Source of the DNA: Acidimicrobiales bacterium
Lineage (GTDB): Bacteria > Actinomycetota > Acidimicrobiia > Acidimicrobiales > SKKL01
Length of the DNA stretch: 64,000 nt
Assembly: GCA_034521975.1 (NCBI GenBank)
Contig: JAXHLR010000006.1
Coordinates: 62,001-126,000 of the forward strand
Reading direction: 5' to 3'
The first letter of the stretch is position 1. Each line of letters starts with the position of its first letter. Of this stretch, positions 49,248-58,364 are shown in pieces. The notes beneath the pieces were generated by a model. That model made no database searches. It was not told where the DNA came from and worked only from the letters and a program-made list of their open reading frames with translations. The position numbers were made by a program, and so were the translations under genes.

Positions 49248-50081
49248 TCACACCAGCACCGCCGCGGCGGTGACGACGACGACAGCGATCCCGAAGAACA
49301 TCTGCTGCAGGCCGATGACCTGGGCGGGCCGGGGCGCGGCACGGATCGCCGCCGCGTTGAACGCAGCAACCGAGGCGATCGCGACCGCTGCCGCGGGGGG
49401 CACGGCACCGATGAGCCATGCGACGGCGACTGCGGCGACTGCGAGAGCTTGCGCCATGTCGCTGTGCCAGAGGTGGTGCGGCCTGCCGTGTGCCCGGAAC
49501 ACCTGGGTCCGTGCGTAGGGGATCGCAGCTGCGCCTCGTGCCGCGACGACGACCCACAGTCCTAGAGCTAGTGAGGCCTCCGCTCCGTCCGCGAGCGCGA
49601 TCGCTGCGGCAACCGAGCTGATGCCGACGGTCCCGGCCAGCTCGGGCAACAGCCGTCGGCCACGGCTACGCATGTCGAACCACAGTTCGATCGCCACAAG
49701 AGGCGCTGCGGCGAGCAACGGCCACCACATGCGTGCGTCGCCTCCCACCGCCGCGGCCATCGCCAGCGCGACGAGCGCGACGAGCTCCACCGCCGCGACC
49801 CGTGCGGCGAGAGTGGTCCGCGGCAGCCAGCGGCCGCGCCACCGATCGACGAGCACGAGCTTCAGGGGTGCCCGTGCGAGGAAGGCCAACATGGCCGCGG
49901 CACCGAGCGCCAGACCGGGCCAGGACCATGCGACCAGCAGACCGAGCAGGATCGGTTCGAGCGTCAGACTCCAGCCGCCGTGCTCGATCGGCATGGCCAC
50001 GGCTCGCAGCGCGGAGCGGTCTCCGGGAGAGACCGGTTCGCCCGACGCACCCGCAGCGCGACGAACGGTCGACTCAGCCAT
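49248..50081 (-). CDS. YwiC-like membrane protein
   Basis: 277 residues, about eight helices. N-terminal MPIEHGGWSLTLEPILLGLLVAW is the YwiC-family signature (E-H-G-x-W). YwiC genes often sit near nitrate/nitrite respiration genes, here the globin operon. Last gene of the minus-strand globin operon; ends 57 bp before the tRNA remnant. Confidence 0.8.
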   Translation of the reverse strand: MAESTVRRAAGASGEPVSPGDRSALRAVAMPIEHGGWSLTLEPILLGLLVAWSWPGLALGAAAMLAFLARAPLKLVLVDRWRGRWLPRTTLAARVAAVELVALVALAMAAAVGGDARMWWPLLAAAPLVAIELWFDMRSRGRRLLPELAGTVGISSVAAAIALADGAEASLALGLWVVVAARGAAAIPYARTQVFRAHGRPHHLWHSDMAQALAVAAVAVAWLIGAVPPAAAVAIASVAAFNAAAIRAAPRPAQVIGLQQMFFGIAVVVVTAAAVLV

Positions 50082-50119
50082 GTCGAGCCTGCGATTCGCT
50101 GGCCATGGCCCTCGGCATC

Positions 50120-50404
50120 TCAGCCAGCTACGCCCTGGGCACTGAGCCAGGCTCTCGCCAGATCCTCGAGGGTCTGCGGACGGTTTTCGTCGAAGTCGAG
50201 GTCGCACTCGCCGAGCGTTCGCTCTCCGTACTCCTCGGCTACGGCTTTCCACAGGTGGAGCAGGGCAAGCTCGTCATCCACGCCTGCCTCGACGAGGTTG
50301 GTGGCCGATGCCGATGCCGGGTCGGCGTCGAGGAGCGACGCGAGGAGGTCCACGACGTCGTCCAGGGTCGGCGGCTCTGCGAGCTGGTGGGTCTCGGCTG
50401 GCAT
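50120..50404 (-). CDS. Acyl-carrier-like small protein without the pantetheine serine
   Basis: 94 residues, acidic. LDDVVDLLASLLD...TNLVEAGVDDELALLHLWKAVAEEYGERTLGECD...PQTLEDLARAW has the helix pattern of a carrier protein, but the DSL serine site reads VDDEL, so it could not be phosphopantetheinylated. A strong Shine-Dalgarno AGGAGGTG sits nine bases upstream. Located in the globin operon; function unknown. Confidence 0.6.
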   Translation of the reverse strand: MPAETHQLAEPPTLDDVVDLLASLLDADPASASATNLVEAGVDDELALLHLWKAVAEEYGERTLGECDLDFDENRPQTLEDLARAWLSAQGVAG

Positions 50405-50450: not shown

Positions 50451-50915
50451 TCAGTTCACGACGGTTCGGACGTCGTGATCGACCCCGCGGAGACGCCGTG
50501 AGATCAGTCCGGCGGTGGCCGCCGCGTGTGCCTTGGCTTGCTCGGAACGTGGCCCACTCCACCGGGCATCGATTGAGGTGACCCACAGCTCATACCACCG
50601 ATCGAAGTGCTCGTCCCGGAGCGGGTCCCGCTGGTGCACCTCCCGATGGGCCCCGAGCAACGCGCCGTGGTAGGCCTGCTCGCCGAGCAGGATCGTGCAC
50701 CAGTAGTCGACCAGGCGCGGGATGTGTGCGGCCCAATCGGTCTCTGCGGTCTCCGCGAAGACTGGAGCGAGGAGATCGTCGAAGACCACCTCACGATAGA
50801 ACGCGACGACGAGATCGTGGATCGCCGAGCGTGTGTCGAGGTCACCGACCGGTTGGGAAATCAGTCCTGGCCCCCGGTCTTGCACCAGGGATCGAGGTGC
50901 TGCTCTGCTGCTCAT
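50451..50915 (-). CDS. Group III truncated haemoglobin
   Basis: 154 residues. Globin core VVAFYREVVFDDLLAPVFAETAETDWAAHIPRLVDYWCTILLGEQAYHGALLGAHREVHQRDPLRDEHFDRWYELW; the proximal His is in the REVHQRDPL...EHFDRW region, as in trHb3. Such globins bind O2 or NO and are often linked to nitrosative stress. The ATG overlaps the stop of the next globin (ATGA). Member of an operon with a putative SufR-like operator. Confidence 0.88.
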   Translation of the reverse strand: MSSRAAPRSLVQDRGPGLISQPVGDLDTRSAIHDLVVAFYREVVFDDLLAPVFAETAETDWAAHIPRLVDYWCTILLGEQAYHGALLGAHREVHQRDPLRDEHFDRWYELWVTSIDARWSGPRSEQAKAHAAATAGLISRRLRGVDHDVRTVVN

Positions 50916-51370
50916 GTCGATTCGCCTCGTTCGAGTGCGACGGGATGTCCGAGCAGTTGCTGGCTGTGGACGCGCGCGACGTTGTCCGCGAGCTCTAGTG
51001 CGCGTTGCACGTTGGGACCCGCCCAGCCAGCCTTGAGGGTCTCATGGAACAGGCTCAGCCACCGCTCGAAGTGCGCGGGGCTGAAAGCTCGTTTCGCGTG
51101 AACGAGCTGGTGGGCACGAAAGGGGTTGCCCTGGTATCCGGGTTCGCCGAGCAACGCCCGACACCAGAACGCGACCAACTTCGGTAGGTGCTCGGTCCAG
51201 TCGACCTCAGCCACCTCGTTGAACACCGGGCCGAGCAGGTCGTCCTGGGCGACGTCGGCGTAGAACCGACGGACCATCTCGGCGATCTCGGCTGCCGAGT
51301 CGAGGTCGGCCACCGCAACCGATTCGACTGCCGGGTGGGCTGCTTGGTGTTCCACCACAGATCCTTCCAT
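50912..51370 (-). CDS. Group III truncated haemoglobin (tandem copy)
   Basis: 152 residues from the ATG at 51370 (GTG at 51358 is also possible). EIAEMVRRFYADVAQDDLLGPVFNEVAEVDWTEHLPKLVAFWCRALLGEPGYQGNPFRAHQLVHAKRAFSPAHFERWLSLF is clearly paralogous to the next globin. The tandem arrangement suggests duplication. First or second gene in the minus operon from the divergent promoter at 51604-51632. Confidence 0.87.
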   Translation of the reverse strand: MEGSVVEHQAAHPAVESVAVADLDSAAEIAEMVRRFYADVAQDDLLGPVFNEVAEVDWTEHLPKLVAFWCRALLGEPGYQGNPFRAHQLVHAKRAFSPAHFERWLSLFHETLKAGWAGPNVQRALELADNVARVHSQQLLGHPVALERGEST

Positions 51371-51378
51371 CGAGCGGC

Positions 51379-51528
51379 CTAGTACACGCTGGCAATCGAG
51401 ACACCGACCAACAGCACCGACACCGCCACCATCAGCAGGATCGCCCGTCCCCTCGGATGGCCCGGACCACTCTTGGGTGGCGATGGCTTGTTCGGTCGAG
51501 GTCGTCGAGACCTCGGTTCGTCGGTCAT
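51379..51528 (-). CDS. Small single-span membrane protein
   Basis: 49 residues: basic Pro/Arg/Lys-rich N-terminus (RSRRPRPNKPSPPKSGP) then one hydrophobic helix (AILLMVAVSVLLVGVSIASVY). First gene of the globin operon, eight bases upstream of the globin ATG; its function is unknown. Confidence 0.6.
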   Translation of the reverse strand: MTDEPRSRRPRPNKPSPPKSGPGHPRGRAILLMVAVSVLLVGVSIASVY

Positions 51529-51605
51529 GGTTCTCCGGCACTCCCTCGCCTCGAGGCGCCTGCGACGCGGTCGCACGGCTCAGCCTGCTACTTGCAGGAA
51601 GTATT

Positions 51606-52733: not shown

Positions 52734-54283
52734 TCAACGACGAGTTGCGGACACCATCCGGCGTAGGACGTGTTCGAGGATGCCGCCGTGGCGGTAGAAC
52801 TCGGCCTCCTGCGGGGTGTCGATCCGCACCCGGGCCCGGAACTCCAGCGACCCGGCTCGAACCGTGACCTCAGACGGAGGATGATGCTGACCGTCGAGCC
52901 CGAGCACGGAGATCTCCTCGTGTCGGTAAGACCCAGGGAATCGAGCGACTCGCCATCGGGGAACTCGAGTGGGAGGACGCCCATGCCGATCAGATTGGAC
53001 CGATGGATGCGTTCGAAGCTCTCGGCGAGGACAGCCCTGACCCCCAGGAGTTGAAGGCTGGCGGCTCCACACCCTGCTCGATCAACCACTGTCCTGCCGG
53101 GCTCTCGGCCCGGATCGCTCCGGCAGGTGAGATGTGGTCGGTCGTGACGCTGTCACCGAGCGCCGCCAGAACCCGCGCGCCGGTGATGTCGCGAAGGGGC
53201 TCCGGTTCGGCGGTCAGGTGTTCGAAGTAGGGAGGCTCGCGGACATAGGTGGACTGATCGTCCCACTCATAGCGATCCCCACCGAGGCTCCGGGGGCTCA
53301 CTACAGACACGGCCCGGAACTCACGGGGAGCGGAGGCCCCGCCGTCGTTCGGCGAGGTCCTCGCGCCAGGCATGCAGGTGGGCGACTGCGAGGTGGATCG
53401 TTGCCCTCACCAGGGTTGGTTGCGTGTCGTTCTCGCCAGCGTGGTGACCCATGGTTGGCTCGACAGCCCCCGCTCGACGGCCTTCTTGGCGAGGAGGCCG
53501 GCGGCGAGCATGACCGACGGGTTGGAGGTGTTGGTGCAACTGGTGATGGCAGCGATGACGACGTGGCCGTGATCGAGGGTCACGTCGTGCCCGTCCTGCA
53601 GCCGCACCGGCACCGCTGCCCGCGGCCGCGCACCGTCCAATCCTTCGGCGTCCTGCTCGAGCTCGGGCTCGTCGATCTCTGAGACCCACTGTCGCGGTGT
53701 GGGAGGGTCGCTGGCCGGAAACGACTGGATCGACAGCTCGTCGGGAGATCCCCGGCGACGGATCGGGCAATGACGACTGCAGGTCGATGGCGAACCGTGC
53801 CTTGGCCTCATCGAGGCGCACCCGATCCTGGGGGCGGGCCGGACCGGCGATGCTCGGCACCACCGTTCCCAGGTCGAGCTCGAGGGTCTCGGAGAAGCGC
53901 GGGGTGGCGTGCGGGTCGAACCACAACCCCTGCTCCTTCGCATATCGCTCCACCAGATCGACCTGTGCCGGTTCACGTCCGGTGAAGCGCAGGTACCGCA
54001 GCGCCTCGTCATCGATCGGGAAGATCGTCACCATGAGGATCCGCGCCGGCATGAACGAGATCTCCTGCTCCACGTCTCCGCCGCCCGACCAGTCGGCCAG
54101 CGCTCGAGCGTCCGCGGCTGTCACCGACGTGCCGTCCTCGTGACGCAAGAGGTTCTCGAGGAACACCTTCGGGCTGAACGGCAGGCCGTCGACATCACCG
54201 CCCACGGCATCGAGCCTGAACATCTCGAGCGAGCCACCCTCGGTGGGAAGCGTTGCCCGGGCACCGAAGCTGTTCTCAGTCAT
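52734..54283 (-). pseudogene. acnA: Degraded aconitase (AcnA) gene
   Basis: Fragments in several frames spell out the family in order: [25 protein letters not shown] (start at 54283), [75 protein letters not shown]...[47 protein letters not shown] and [17 protein letters not shown]. About 1.55 kb remain of an expected 2.7 kb. Deletions remove the substrate/Fe-S block after PARILM (junction near 54030), the GCTTCIGNS cysteines and a segment after FNSWG; at least two frameshifts also occur. Not functional. Confidence 0.9.
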
Positions 54284-54358
54284 CCACCCATGCCGCCCCA
54301 CCGCACCCAGGTATGCACCTGGCACACCAAGCACCGCCGGGGAGACCCTCGCGGAAGC

Positions 54359-54895
54359 TCACTCGGCGTCGTAGACGACGCGTCGATCGCCCAGTCGTGC
54401 ACCCGATGTGATCGGGTGCTCGGTGATCCGGCCGTCGTGGAGCAGGTGCCTGACGTCGGCACCTTTCACCAGGACCAAGTGGTCGGCGAGCAGTCGGCGG
54501 TGGCAGCGCCACCACACCGACTCGGCGCACATCACCGCGGCGCGCGACACCTCGGCCACCTCGAGCAACGCGTCGACCGCAGCGCCGAACTCGCCCGATG
54601 CCATGTGGTCGGCGTAGGCACGAAACTGACGGTTCCGCAAGGCACTGTTGGGTGAGTCCTCGCGCACGGATCGGCGACCACCCAGTTCCACCATCCATCG
54701 GTAGCCGACTCCCCGATCGGCCAGCCAAGGCTCCATCGCCTCGCGCCCGAAGTGCGGGTGTCGGCGACTACCGGGGTAGCGCCGCACGTCGACGACGAGG
54801 TCGATGCCGACAGGCTGCAGGATCTCCAGGAACCCTGCGGCCGACACCGTACCGTGCCCGACCGTCCAGATCGGGGGCCTTCGATCCAGTGTCAC
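54359..54895 (-). CDS. DUF488 family protein
   Basis: 178 residues from a GTG at 54895. TVGHGTVSAAGFLEILQPVGIDLVVDVRRYPGSRRHPHFGREAM and VMCAESVWWRCHRRLLADHLVLVKG are DUF488 hallmarks. The cysteine and histidine pair (CAESVWWRCHRR) suggests a redox or metal role. Divergent from the SufR-like regulator with operator site B in between; TTGCAA-N17-AATAAT forms a good promoter (54930-54902). Confidence 0.85.
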   Translation of the reverse strand: MTLDRRPPIWTVGHGTVSAAGFLEILQPVGIDLVVDVRRYPGSRRHPHFGREAMEPWLADRGVGYRWMVELGGRRSVREDSPNSALRNRQFRAYADHMASGEFGAAVDALLEVAEVSRAAVMCAESVWWRCHRRLLADHLVLVKGADVRHLLHDGRITEHPITSGARLGDRRVVYDAE

Positions 54896-54905
54896 CCGAC
54901 GATTA

Positions 54906-54925
54906 TTTCTAGGAACGACTAGAGT
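54906..54925. promoter_or_regulatory. Palindromic operator (site B), regulator/DUF488 intergenic
   Basis: TTTCTAG-N6-CTAGAGT, near-perfect symmetry (TCTAG-N6-CTAGA core). It sits in the spacer of the DUF488 promoter and just upstream of the regulator gene, consistent with autoregulation. Confidence 0.75.
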
Positions 54926-54989
54926 TGCAACGGCGGGACCACTGCCCACGACCGATGGCTCGGTCAGAGCCGCCAGGATGGAGCACCTC

Positions 54990-55700
54990 GTGACCGCCAC
55001 CACGCTCCAGGAGCAAGCAAAGGCGCTCGGCGACCCGACGCGCCACGCCATCTTTCGTCATATCGCACGGTCTGGACGCCCTGTTGGCATCGCCGAGCTC
55101 GACGACGAGTTCCCGTTCACGCACAACGCCATCCGACAGCACTTGGCAAAGCTGGTCTCGGCCGGTCTCGTTCTCGAGGCCAAGGCTCCACCCGCCGGAC
55201 GGGGCCGACCTCGCCTGATCTATGAAGTCGATCCGGCCGTCGAGGGCCAATGGGGGACGACGGGGCCGTATGAGCGCTTGAGTCAACTGCTGGCCGAGGT
55301 CATCGACACAGGGCTCGGGCCCGAAGAGGTGGGTCGACGCGCCGCCGATCTGTTCCGTGTGCCCTCGCCGTCGGGTGACATCGTCGCCGATGTGACCGCC
55401 GCAATGGCTCGCCACGGCTTCGACCCCGAGGTCAGGCCGCTACGTGATGGTGCCGAGATCGTCCTGCAGAACTGCCCGTTCGCTGCCACCGCCCTGTCCC
55501 ATCGCGACACCATCTGTACGCTTCACCTCGGCATCGCCGAAGGGTTGGCCGCGGCCGAGTCCGCCGTGGTCAGCGAGCTCGTGGCCTACGATCCTCGCAA
55601 GGCCGGCTGCAAGCTCCGCATCCGCCTCGTCGCAGAGGATTCAGAGAACCCAGAGGACTCCGGGACCCTGACCGTGCGTGGGAAGGCTGGCACCCGATGA
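54990..55700 (+). CDS. SufR-like (COG2345) Fe-S-sensing transcriptional regulator
   Basis: 236 residues from a GTG at 54990 (GGAG six bases upstream); an ATG at 54978 is the alternative. N-terminal winged HTH: LGDPTRHAIFRHIARSGRPVGIAELDDEFPFTHNAIRQHLAKLVSAGLV. The C-terminal half has Cys162 (QNCPFAATAL), Cys176 (TICTLH) and Cys207 (GCKLRI), spaced like the Fe-S ligand cysteines of mycobacterial SufR. Family members repress suf genes and respond to Fe-S or NO. Its own promoter has operator B, and the suf operon is 5 kb away. Confidence 0.85.
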   Translation: MTATTLQEQAKALGDPTRHAIFRHIARSGRPVGIAELDDEFPFTHNAIRQHLAKLVSAGLVLEAKAPPAGRGRPRLIYEVDPAVEGQWGTTGPYERLSQLLAEVIDTGLGPEEVGRRAADLFRVPSPSGDIVADVTAAMARHGFDPEVRPLRDGAEIVLQNCPFAATALSHRDTICTLHLGIAEGLAAAESAVVSELVAYDPRKAGCKLRIRLVAEDSENPEDSGTLTVRGKAGTR

Positions 55701-55751: not shown

Positions 55752-56516
55752 ATGAACCAGGTTGAGCTTCCTGTCGGCCTCGTCGAGGCGAGACGTACGC
55801 CGATGTTCGACTTCGAGTCGATGCCCGAACCCATCGCGACCTCGCACCGCACCACGGTCTGGGCATCGCTGCACGTCGAGGCAGGCGATGTCGACTACAA
55901 CGACCTCGAAGGCGACGAACGACGCCACGAGCGGCTCGAGGAGGGCGACAGCATCGTCATCCCCCCATGGGTGCTCCACCGGGTCGATCCATCCACCGAT
56001 GCCCACTTCTTCGTGCAGTTCTACCGGGAGCCCCAGGAGGGTCTGGTACCGGAGATTCATCCCACACCCCCACCATCCCCGCGCGCGGCAGGTCCGTGGC
56101 AGCATCGTGGCCGCGACCTCGACTCCCCCGGGGAGATCCTCGAGATGGTCACCCGGCAGTACGCGGTGGTCGTCCAGGACGATGTGCTCGAGCCGTACTT
56201 CACACCCGAGCAGGGCTTCATCGACTGGCAAGCCCACATCGGCAGGGTGTCCGACTACTGGAACCACGTGCTCCTGTTCGCACCCGACTACCGAATCGAC
56301 CCCATCGAGGGGCATCGCGAGGTGCACGAGCGGCGCCCGTTCACCGAAGCAGCACTCGATCGCTGGCTCGAGATCTTCCACGAGACCATCGACACCGGAT
56401 GGACCGGGCCCGTCGCGGAGATGGCCAAGAAGCGTGGCACCGGAACCGCGTGGGCCATGGCCCAGCGCCTGCTGGGGCACGGCGCCTGGCGTCCACCTGG
56501 GCATCGTCGGATCTGA
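55752..56516 (+). CDS. DUF1971 (YeaR/TehB-like) - truncated haemoglobin fusion
   Basis: 254 residues. The first 105 residues are a DUF1971 cupin-like domain (RTPMFDFESMPEPIATSHRTTVWASLHVEAG, EEGDSIVIPPWVLHRV); the rest is a group III globin (EILEMVTRQYAVVVQDDVLEPYFTPEQGFIDWQAHIGRVSDYWNHVLLFAPDYRIDP...FTEAALDRWLEIFHE). YeaR in E. coli is NO/nitrite-regulated, so the fusion links it to gas binding. Follows the regulator gene by 51 bp, same strand; GAGGAG precedes the ATG. Confidence 0.88.
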   Translation: MNQVELPVGLVEARRTPMFDFESMPEPIATSHRTTVWASLHVEAGDVDYNDLEGDERRHERLEEGDSIVIPPWVLHRVDPSTDAHFFVQFYREPQEGLVPEIHPTPPPSPRAAGPWQHRGRDLDSPGEILEMVTRQYAVVVQDDVLEPYFTPEQGFIDWQAHIGRVSDYWNHVLLFAPDYRIDPIEGHREVHERRPFTEAALDRWLEIFHETIDTGWTGPVAEMAKKRGTGTAWAMAQRLLGHGAWRPPGHRRI

Positions 56517-56562: not shown

Positions 56563-56955
56563 ATGCGAACCCTTGTACAAGTAGGCGGTGCCAACTGCAC
56601 CTTCTGCATGCAGGACGTGCGCGCGGAGCTGCTCAGCCGCCCGCGGGTGCAGCAGGTCAACCTGTGGACCCCAGAGTCCTGTCTCGAGGTGGTGCACGAG
56701 CACGACGACGTGACCGCGATCACCGACTTTCTGCGCCGCTCGCTGCACGGGTGGGAGGTCGCCGACAACGGTGAGGTCGTGATGGTGGAGACCACACCCG
56801 AATCGGTCGACCGGTGCCAGCGCCACGGCTCGCAGGTGGCCACAGGCGATTCCTGCTCAGCCTCGCCAGTAGTCGTTGGCCGCCGCGACCGTCGCGAACT
56901 CGACCGCCACGACGTGCGCGGCTGCGGTGAGCGAGTCGGGATCGCTCGCGTATAG
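56563..56955 (+). CDS. Heavy-metal-associated-like domain protein with CxxC
   Basis: 130 residues. RTLVQVGGANCTFCMQDVRAELLSRPRVQQVNLWTPESCLEVVHEHDD is a ferredoxin-like HMA fold with the Cys-x2-Cys metal site; a later Cys-rich segment (DRCQRHGSQVATGDSCSASP) follows. The last about 30 residues overlap an opposite gene and look non-conserved, so the true end may be earlier or frameshifted. GAGGAGG precedes the ATG. Third gene of the regulator operon. Confidence 0.75.
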   Translation: MRTLVQVGGANCTFCMQDVRAELLSRPRVQQVNLWTPESCLEVVHEHDDVTAITDFLRRSLHGWEVADNGEVVMVETTPESVDRCQRHGSQVATGDSCSASPVVVGRRDRRELDRHDVRGCGERVGIARV

Positions 56956-57253: not shown

Positions 57254-57958
57254 ATGTCCACCGTCAATGCCTCTCACGACCCGCTCGATCGCACCTTGGG
57301 TGAGCTCGTCGCCGAACGACCGGCACGTGCCCGCATCCTCGAACGGTGGGGCATCGACTACTGCTGCCATGGCCAGCGCACGCTCGCCGACGCCGCCGCC
57401 TCCGCGGGACTCGATCCTGACGAGGTCGCGACCGAGGTCGATGAGGTCGTCGATGACACCGATGGCCACATCGACCGGCTGGAGCCGATCGCGTTGGTCG
57501 ACCACATCCTGACCACACACCACGACTACCTCCATGAGGAGCTGCCGCTGCTCGTCGCGCTGGCCGCGAAGGTGCGTGACGTGCACGGTGCACGCCATCC
57601 CGAGCTCGCACGGATCGCCGAACTGGTCAACGAGATCCAGGCCGATCTGACGCCACATCTCGCCAAGGAGGAGCAGCTGCTCTTCCCGGCGATTCGCGAG
57701 TGGGCCGATGGGCAACGCACGTTCCCGTTCGGCACACTGTCCAACCCGGTGCGGATGATGATGTTCGAGCACGACCAGGCCGGTGAGCTGCTGGCCGAGC
57801 TTCGATCGGTCACCGGCGACTACACCCCTCCACCAGATGGCTGCACCAGCTACGAGGTGCTGTTCGCCCGGCTCGCGCATCTCGAGCTCGACACCCACCG
57901 GCACATCCACCTGGAGAACAACGTGCTGTTCCCCGCTGTCACCGCTGGCGAGCAGTGA
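57254..57958 (+). CDS. ric: RIC / YtfE-type di-iron Fe-S cluster repair protein
   Basis: 234 residues. ScdA N-domain with GIDYCCHGQRTLADAAA (Cys37-Cys38), then a hemerythrin domain with repeated His: LVDHILTTHHDYLHEELP, LTPHLAKEEQLLFPAI, MMFEHDQAGELL and LDTHRHIHLENNVLFP. Such proteins repair NO- or peroxide-damaged Fe-S clusters in the cytosol. RBS AAAGGAG six bases upstream. Confidence 0.92.
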   Translation: MSTVNASHDPLDRTLGELVAERPARARILERWGIDYCCHGQRTLADAAASAGLDPDEVATEVDEVVDDTDGHIDRLEPIALVDHILTTHHDYLHEELPLLVALAAKVRDVHGARHPELARIAELVNEIQADLTPHLAKEEQLLFPAIREWADGQRTFPFGTLSNPVRMMMFEHDQAGELLAELRSVTGDYTPPPDGCTSYEVLFARLAHLELDTHRHIHLENNVLFPAVTAGEQ

Positions 57959-58009: not shown

Positions 58010-58364
58010 ATGTGTGATCACTGCAGCTGCCGCGAGAACGCTCCGATCGCCGAGTTGTCCGAGGAACACGAACAGATCCTGGAGGTCGCCTGGGCGCTAA
58101 GCGAGCACCATCGCACCACCGGAGTTGCCGACGGGCCGCTTCGGGATCGGCGACCGCGCACGCCTGGAAGAGGAGCACGCCGCGCTCGGCGCCGCGCTCC
58201 AGCACGGCACCTTCGACCGCCGAACCTTCTACGAGCTGGCCGCCCACATCGAGGAGGAGGAGATGGAGCTCTTCCCGATGACGATGTTCGGCTTCGACGA
58301 CGACGAGTGGACCGTCCTGGCAGCAACACCCCGGTTCCTCGCCGAGGCACCCACCCCTCCCTGA
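58010..58364 (+). pseudogene. Hemerythrin-like gene with a single-base frameshift
   Basis: First frame: MCDHCSCRENAPIAELSEEHEQILEVAWALSEHHRT (Cys-rich start, His ligands). The second frame continues GDRARLEEEHAALGAALQHG...YELAAHIEEEEMELFPMTMFGF. One extra G in the run at 58133-58135 joins them. About 118 residues if intact. Follows ric by 51 bp; could be a sequence error. Confidence 0.65.

Follow-up and report, generated by a model that had tools for sequence, protein, structure and literature searches.

The DUF1971 domain is known from YeaR and TehB. E. coli YeaR (b1797, structure 3bb6) is a stand-alone protein, without a globin and paired with yoaG, and TehB (Haemophilus influenzae, 3m70; Vibrio fischeri, 3dl3) has an N-terminal DUF1971 domain, part of a longer protein in 3m70, which it joins to an S-adenosylmethionine methyltransferase. 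In nitrate-treated E. coli CFT073, yeaR was induced 160-fold, among the strongest responses, and was described as NsrR-regulated; a novel anaerobic NO-scavenging activity found in this strain did not depend on yeaR-yoaG (PMC5320621), so that DUF1971 alone need not consume NO. Among the truncated haemoglobins (trHbs), His at E7 and Trp at E15 are hallmarks of group P (PMC4720485). Ctb of Campylobacter jejuni (2ig3) is NO-inducible and consists of a single domain; its function has been called uncertain (PMC3820574). Multidomain globins are also known, such as the flavohaemoglobin Hmp and the Heterosigma nitrate reductase-trHb NR2-2/2HbN, which are linked to NO detoxification (PMC3820574).

Here we describe a gene that joins DUF1971 to a truncated haemoglobin in a 64,000-nucleotide stretch of an Acidimicrobiales genome (contig JAXHLR010000006.1; hereafter the window). 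Its DUF1971 half has the family, the fold and the invariant His, Pro and Phe positions of YeaR, but is fused to a globin, and the methyltransferase of TehB is missing from the protein. Its globin half has the same haem-pocket residues as Ctb, its best structural match; unlike Ctb it is part of a fusion, and its E7 residue varies among orthologues. Cupin and globin take up the 254 aa; neither the FAD/NAD domains of Hmp nor the nitrate reductase domain of NR2-2/2HbN is present, the partner of the globin being a cupin. The same two families share one chain in a Rhizobiaceae globin-DUF1971 protein (XAZ21015.1, whose sole annotation is "DUF1971 domain-containing protein"), which differs in its reversed domain order, its separate globin clade and its NsrR-like/hmpA operon. 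Both families were known already and their combination has been annotated automatically in Rhizobiaceae; in the literature searched we found no published discussion of DUF1971-trHb or globin-cupin fusions.

Results

The fusion gene reads in a single frame from an ATG at 55752, with AGGAG just 5' of it, to a stop codon at 56514-56516 (Table 1). An earlier note on the window had proposed a YeaR/TehB-like cupin followed by a group III globin in this 254-residue frame, and had named an undetected stop or frameshift between the domains as the risk to that reading. Pfam, phmmer and an AlphaFold2 model bear out the two domains. The stop or frameshift was looked for and is absent across the 254 codons, and the frame is kept in seven sequences, which rules out a sequencing or assembly artefact. 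The note was also right to count this globin as the third of the locus: the other two are encoded as a pair on the opposite strand, and the globin half of the fusion is 40-43% identical to them.

Table 1. Features of the fusion gene, its window neighbours and small cupin genes in related loci
Feature	Position	Strand	Basis or remark
DUF1971-trHb3 fusion gene, 254 aa	55752..56516, stop included	+	ORF, Pfam, phmmer, AlphaFold2
DUF1971 (YeaR/TehB-N-like) cupin domain, residues 4-96	55761..56039	+	Pfam, structure match, alignment
Linker, residues 97-117	56040..56102	+	pLDDT <50 at 97-114; lowest conservation within the protein
Group III truncated haemoglobin domain, residues 118-245	56103..56486	+	phmmer, alignment, structure match
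ArsR-like HTH regulator	54978..55700	+	Upstream of fusion, same strand; ORF opens at 54804, likely start ~54978
Small CxxC protein	56563..56850	+	Immediately 3' of the fusion; judged coding by eye and because a similar-looking gene follows the Aquihabitans fusion
RIC/YtfE/ScdA iron-sulfur cluster repair di-iron protein	57257..57958	+	TIGR03652, 236 bits, cut-off 204.7
trHb, 154 aa, second gene of globin pair	50451..50915	-	Overlaps the first by 4 nt
trHb, 209 aa from GTG, first gene of globin pair	50912..51541	-	Conserved part from ~51310
DUF488 protein	54359..55051	-	Family also near DUF1971 genes in several other bacteria
YwiC-like protein	49248..50252	-	Likewise adjoins the fusion in Aquihabitans
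Small Cupin_2 genes	L039:10658-10999; L040:8922-9266; L048:5639-5974		

An AlphaFold2 model built from 13 sequences (mean pLDDT 82.7), for which a poor earlier model from 5 sequences (pLDDT 51) was set aside, has two domains of high confidence, joined by a linker that is disordered at residues 97-114; at a pTM of 0.56 it does not fix their relative placement. The DUF1971 half matches PF09313 over residues 14-88 (E 2e-10, 40.9 bits against a cut-off of 23.1, profile positions 1-80 of 80), and residues 2-94 match V. fischeri TehB 3dl3 (E 2.2e-5). When the model was compared with solved structures by VIA-align, 3dl3 was matched over residues 4-93 (Z 14.5) and YeaR 3bb6 over residues 3-95 (Z 14.0, 25% identity). 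The invariant DUF1971 positions P25, H32, P72, H76 and F90 (23/23 sequences) are all present. The two histidines, likewise invariant in all 23 aligned domains, are the only conserved candidate metal ligands: motif 1 has no conserved Glu or second His, and the canonical metal-cupin set of three His and one Glu (HxH..E in motif 1, His in motif 2) is not conserved across the 23 aligned sequences. An ordinary dioxygenase-type cupin should therefore not be assumed. The function of stand-alone TehB was rejected, since the methyltransferase match is absent and the TehB equivalog scores 26.9 of 303 bits. The cupin of SznF, an enzyme forming an N-nitroso group, matched at Z 8.9, no better than many other cupins, and was not taken as a guide.

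For the globin half, 2ig3 was the top solved structure both by sequence (residues 132-222, phmmer E 1.1e-5) and by structure (residues 118-243, VIA-align of the model, Z 15.4). PF01152 (Bac_globin) was not reported for the fusion, and annotated group III trHbs likewise score below its cut-off. Mapped on 2ig3, the pocket residues are Tyr137 (B10), Asp143 (B16), Phe150 (CD1), His162 (E7), Trp170 (E15), His188 (F8) and Trp205 (G8). All of these except E7 are invariant in 15 aligned globins, and B10 Tyr, E15 Trp, F8 His and G8 Trp are invariant among the fusions. On alignment and model together, the globin half is a group III (P) truncated haemoglobin with a predicted intact haem pocket. At E7, His is present as H162 in the window protein and is replaced by Leu in four of the seven fusions, the orthologues of genomes G058, G131, G122 and G209 (loci L035, L036, L037 and L038), the remaining pocket being unchanged.

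The domain search suggested by the earlier note yielded the whole fusion in six other Acidimicrobiia sequences, at about 55-79% identity, as well as the reversed-order fusions of Rhizobiaceae. An order-wide scan of 298 genomes found it in G058 (79%), G131 (74%; this gene contains a run of N), G209 (67%), G122 (64%) and G268 (56%), and a scan of named genomes gave five whole-fusion loci (Acidimicrobiia bacterium EGI L10123, Acidimicrobiaceae UBA9382, bin 5_8_m_bin22, Aquihabitans sp. G128 and Acidimicrobiales Prado018), Prado018 being a carrier beyond those of the order-wide scan. A scan of viral contigs with the fusion protein gave zero matches. Against G058, the closest relative, pN/pS was 0.22 for DUF1971, 0.24 for the linker and 0.26 for the globin. 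Pairs further apart gave 0.55-0.99 for the linker and 0.35-0.52 for both domains. Judged by these ratios, both domains are under purifying selection. Of 296 genomes sampled across the phylum, only 7 contained DUF1971, so a chance encounter of two widespread domains does not account for the fusion.

The locus in the window also holds genes for mending NO-damaged iron-sulfur clusters, and such genes lie near the fusion in several relatives. In Aquihabitans the order is trHb, RIC, trHb, ArsR-like regulator, YwiC, fusion and cupin; in G209 a RIC gene lies directly upstream and overlaps the start of the fusion, and in G058 RIC, trHb and SUF genes are all near it. SUF genes near the window fusion were recognised by eye and by their conservation beside trHb genes in relatives. 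UBA9382 and Prado018 have a NasC-like reductase near the fusion (~770 bits, below the equivalog cut-off of 1100) and G000 has one elsewhere in the genome; NasC is able to produce NO, and Bradyrhizobium is protected by a globin encoded in its nasC operon (PMC4724949). A search for nitrite reductase gave matches below the cut-off only. Neither an Rrf2 gene nor hmp was seen near the fusion in the window, where the regulator is ArsR-like, and the FNR-type FAD-binding domain PF00970, and hence a flavohaemoglobin, was not found in G000, G122, G127 or G131. Three cysteines of the ArsR-like regulator are conserved in its Aquihabitans homologue (CPFA..C.LHLG..C, 52% identity), and a role as Fe-S sensor would be plausible from this motif; the SufR model scored 16 of 179 bits.

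Some further observations concern the same loci. A small Cupin_2 protein, 59-67% identical to the Aquihabitans copy, adjoins the fusion or, in G127, an unfused globin. Within the window, aconitase-like pieces in several overlapping broken frames were seen by eye at 52734-54334 (-), as of a decayed or truncated copy, and a Pfam scan of the piece at 52990-53373 gave no significant match. A hemerythrin-like small protein spread over two frames, possibly by a frameshift or as a pseudogene, was likewise seen by eye at 58010-58364 (+).

Outside the Acidimicrobiia the two domains meet in the opposite order. XAZ21015.1 of Sinorhizobium sp. B11, from a plasmid search, has 228 residues, with the globin first and DUF1971 second (residues 137-209, E 1e-12). 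S. terangae has the reversed fusion as a single ORF of 237 aa, and in Ensifer canadensis and Agrobacterium sp. 33MFTa1.1 one annotated "DUF1971 domain-containing protein" has a matching span. In all three annotated cases the fusion lies between a divergent Rrf2 regulator and hmpA; of the three Rrf2 proteins tested, NsrR was the best model for two and RirA for one, all below the equivalog cut-offs. Unfused genes keep the same company: the order trHb3, DUF1971, hmpA was found in Sphingobium, Sphingomonas (with an alternative oxidase between) and Polymorphobacter, and the three genes are grouped together in Sulfitobacter and Roseomonas. Several of these unfused pairs overlap by 4-8 nt. Taking fusions and pairs together, an NsrR-like/Rrf2 regulator and hmpA accompany them in Sinorhizobium, Ensifer, Agrobacterium, Sphingobium, Sphingomonas, Polymorphobacter and Sulfitobacter. 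In Rhizobium sp. SSA_523 (L061:5001-5667) a globin adjoins hmpA and its ORF ends before the DUF1971 part of its relatives, which gives it the look of a reversed fusion in decay.

In a globin tree of 52 rows, whose bootstrap is not fully settled, the seven fusions with N-terminal DUF1971 form one group, separated from the reversed ones at 100/100. The unfused globin of G127 is nested inside this group, an apparent loss of DUF1971, and the four reversed fusions group within alphaproteobacterial globins, some of them unfused. The simplest reading of the tree would be two independent origins of the fusion, in opposite orders.

We also opened by hand nine records from a DUF1971-only query, picked for taxonomic variety, a small sample that is not a statistic. 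A globin lay within ~2.5 kb of DUF1971 in four (Polymorphobacter, Sulfitobacter, Parasedimentitalea and Croceicoccus), the Croceicoccus partner being an ordinary PF00042 globin of the non-truncated family. Four others had NO-related genes or DUF488: Rrf2 and NnrS in Paracoccus; hcp, Crp/Fnr and DUF488 in Acidithiobacillus; a PAS protein and DUF488 in Acetobacter pomorum; and DUF488 in Methylocystis. One had neither kind of neighbour. DUF1971 overlaps the PAS-domain gene of Acetobacter pomorum (L077:3112-3770) and an unassigned 125-aa gene of Methylocystis (L074:3184-3824) by 4 nt; these two proteins may be further small partners of DUF1971. DUF488 itself recurs near DUF1971 in distant bacteria (the window, L054, L062, L074, L076 and L077), and in E. 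coli yeaO (DUF488) is ~2.3 kb from yeaR.

Discussion

The functional link between globin and DUF1971 is strong. The earlier note had suggested that the two domains work on the same ligand or substrate, and this view is strengthened by the reversed-order fusion, by the trHb3-DUF1971 pairs beside hmpA and an NsrR-like Rrf2 gene, and by the pair with an ordinary globin; that the ligand is the same for both, we still only infer. On balance we favour the fusion as a cytoplasmic protein of nitric-oxide or nitrosative stress with two tethered domains, in which the globin would handle NO or O2 and DUF1971 would serve the same reaction. A role in the NO response is likely, since NO is the commonest thread in the genomic company of these genes. 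The chemistry, including haem binding by the globin, NO as its ligand and the cooperation of the domains, is what we infer from these data. The globin haem would capture NO, or O2 and NO, and convert it, and DUF1971, through His32 and His76, would handle the product (nitrate, N2O or a scavenged adduct are candidates), supply or accept electrons, or keep the haem in a working state. The fusion would hold both domains close and at equal dose, as may be done elsewhere by overlapping genes beside hmpA. Direct NO turnover by a globin that has DUF1971 for a partner is a more tentative proposal, somewhat short of an even chance. Several points weigh against the favoured reading: yeaR-yoaG was dispensable in E. 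coli CFT073, a fused electron-donor domain is absent from the 254-aa protein, Leu replaces His at E7 in four of the fusions, the window locus lacks an Rrf2 gene and a nearby hmp, linkage and induction do not show catalysis, and the function of Ctb is itself uncertain.

The protein could instead be a sensor or adaptor: NO or O2 bound at the globin would gate the cupin, a protein-binding output without catalysis. Such a role would suit the unconserved metal tetrad, the flexible linker of the model and the coupling of DUF1971 to ligand-sensing folds generally (a PAS gene in Acetobacter pomorum, an ordinary globin in Croceicoccus), but DNA-binding, kinase and cyclase domains are absent, and the apparent co-transcription with hmpA and the proximity of RIC fit detoxification or repair better; we consider it unlikely. 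We are similarly doubtful that trHb3 is a peroxidase or an O2-handling globin for which NO is merely the inducer. In a modelling study 78% of group P trHbs were placed in a catalase-peroxidase-like type (PMC4720485), and alternative oxidase or cbb3 oxidase genes lie in or beside some DUF1971/trHb3 loci, but the recurrent partners (hmpA, the NsrR-like regulator, RIC, NnrS and hcp) are NO-specific or NO-linked. Co-regulation, by which two NO-induced proteins became fused through joint expression with no shared chemistry, is quite improbable: it could by itself produce fusion and adjacency, and G127 does retain its globin without DUF1971, but that globin still adjoins a different small cupin gene, and neutrality would have to hold both for two independent opposite-order fusions and for the gene overlaps of several lineages.

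A wider and speculative extension, which we think rather unlikely, is that DUF1971 would be a general partner that makes small NO-binding haem proteins catalytic (trHb3, ordinary single-domain globins and perhaps PAS proteins), for instance through electron transfer or by acting on NO products held at the haem. The two fusions would then be the same bipartite NO-detoxifying enzyme, invented twice, and E. coli YeaR its orphaned half. At a more modest level, the orphan YeaR domain probably works together with NO-binding globins. What yeaR does and how group III trHbs work have been separate questions; given two independent fusions, opposite in order, and recurrent gene pairing, each family is now the predicted partner of the other. 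The two questions thereby merge into one, namely whether DUF1971 alters the NO chemistry of a truncated globin, and the orphan yeaR gains a testable partner.
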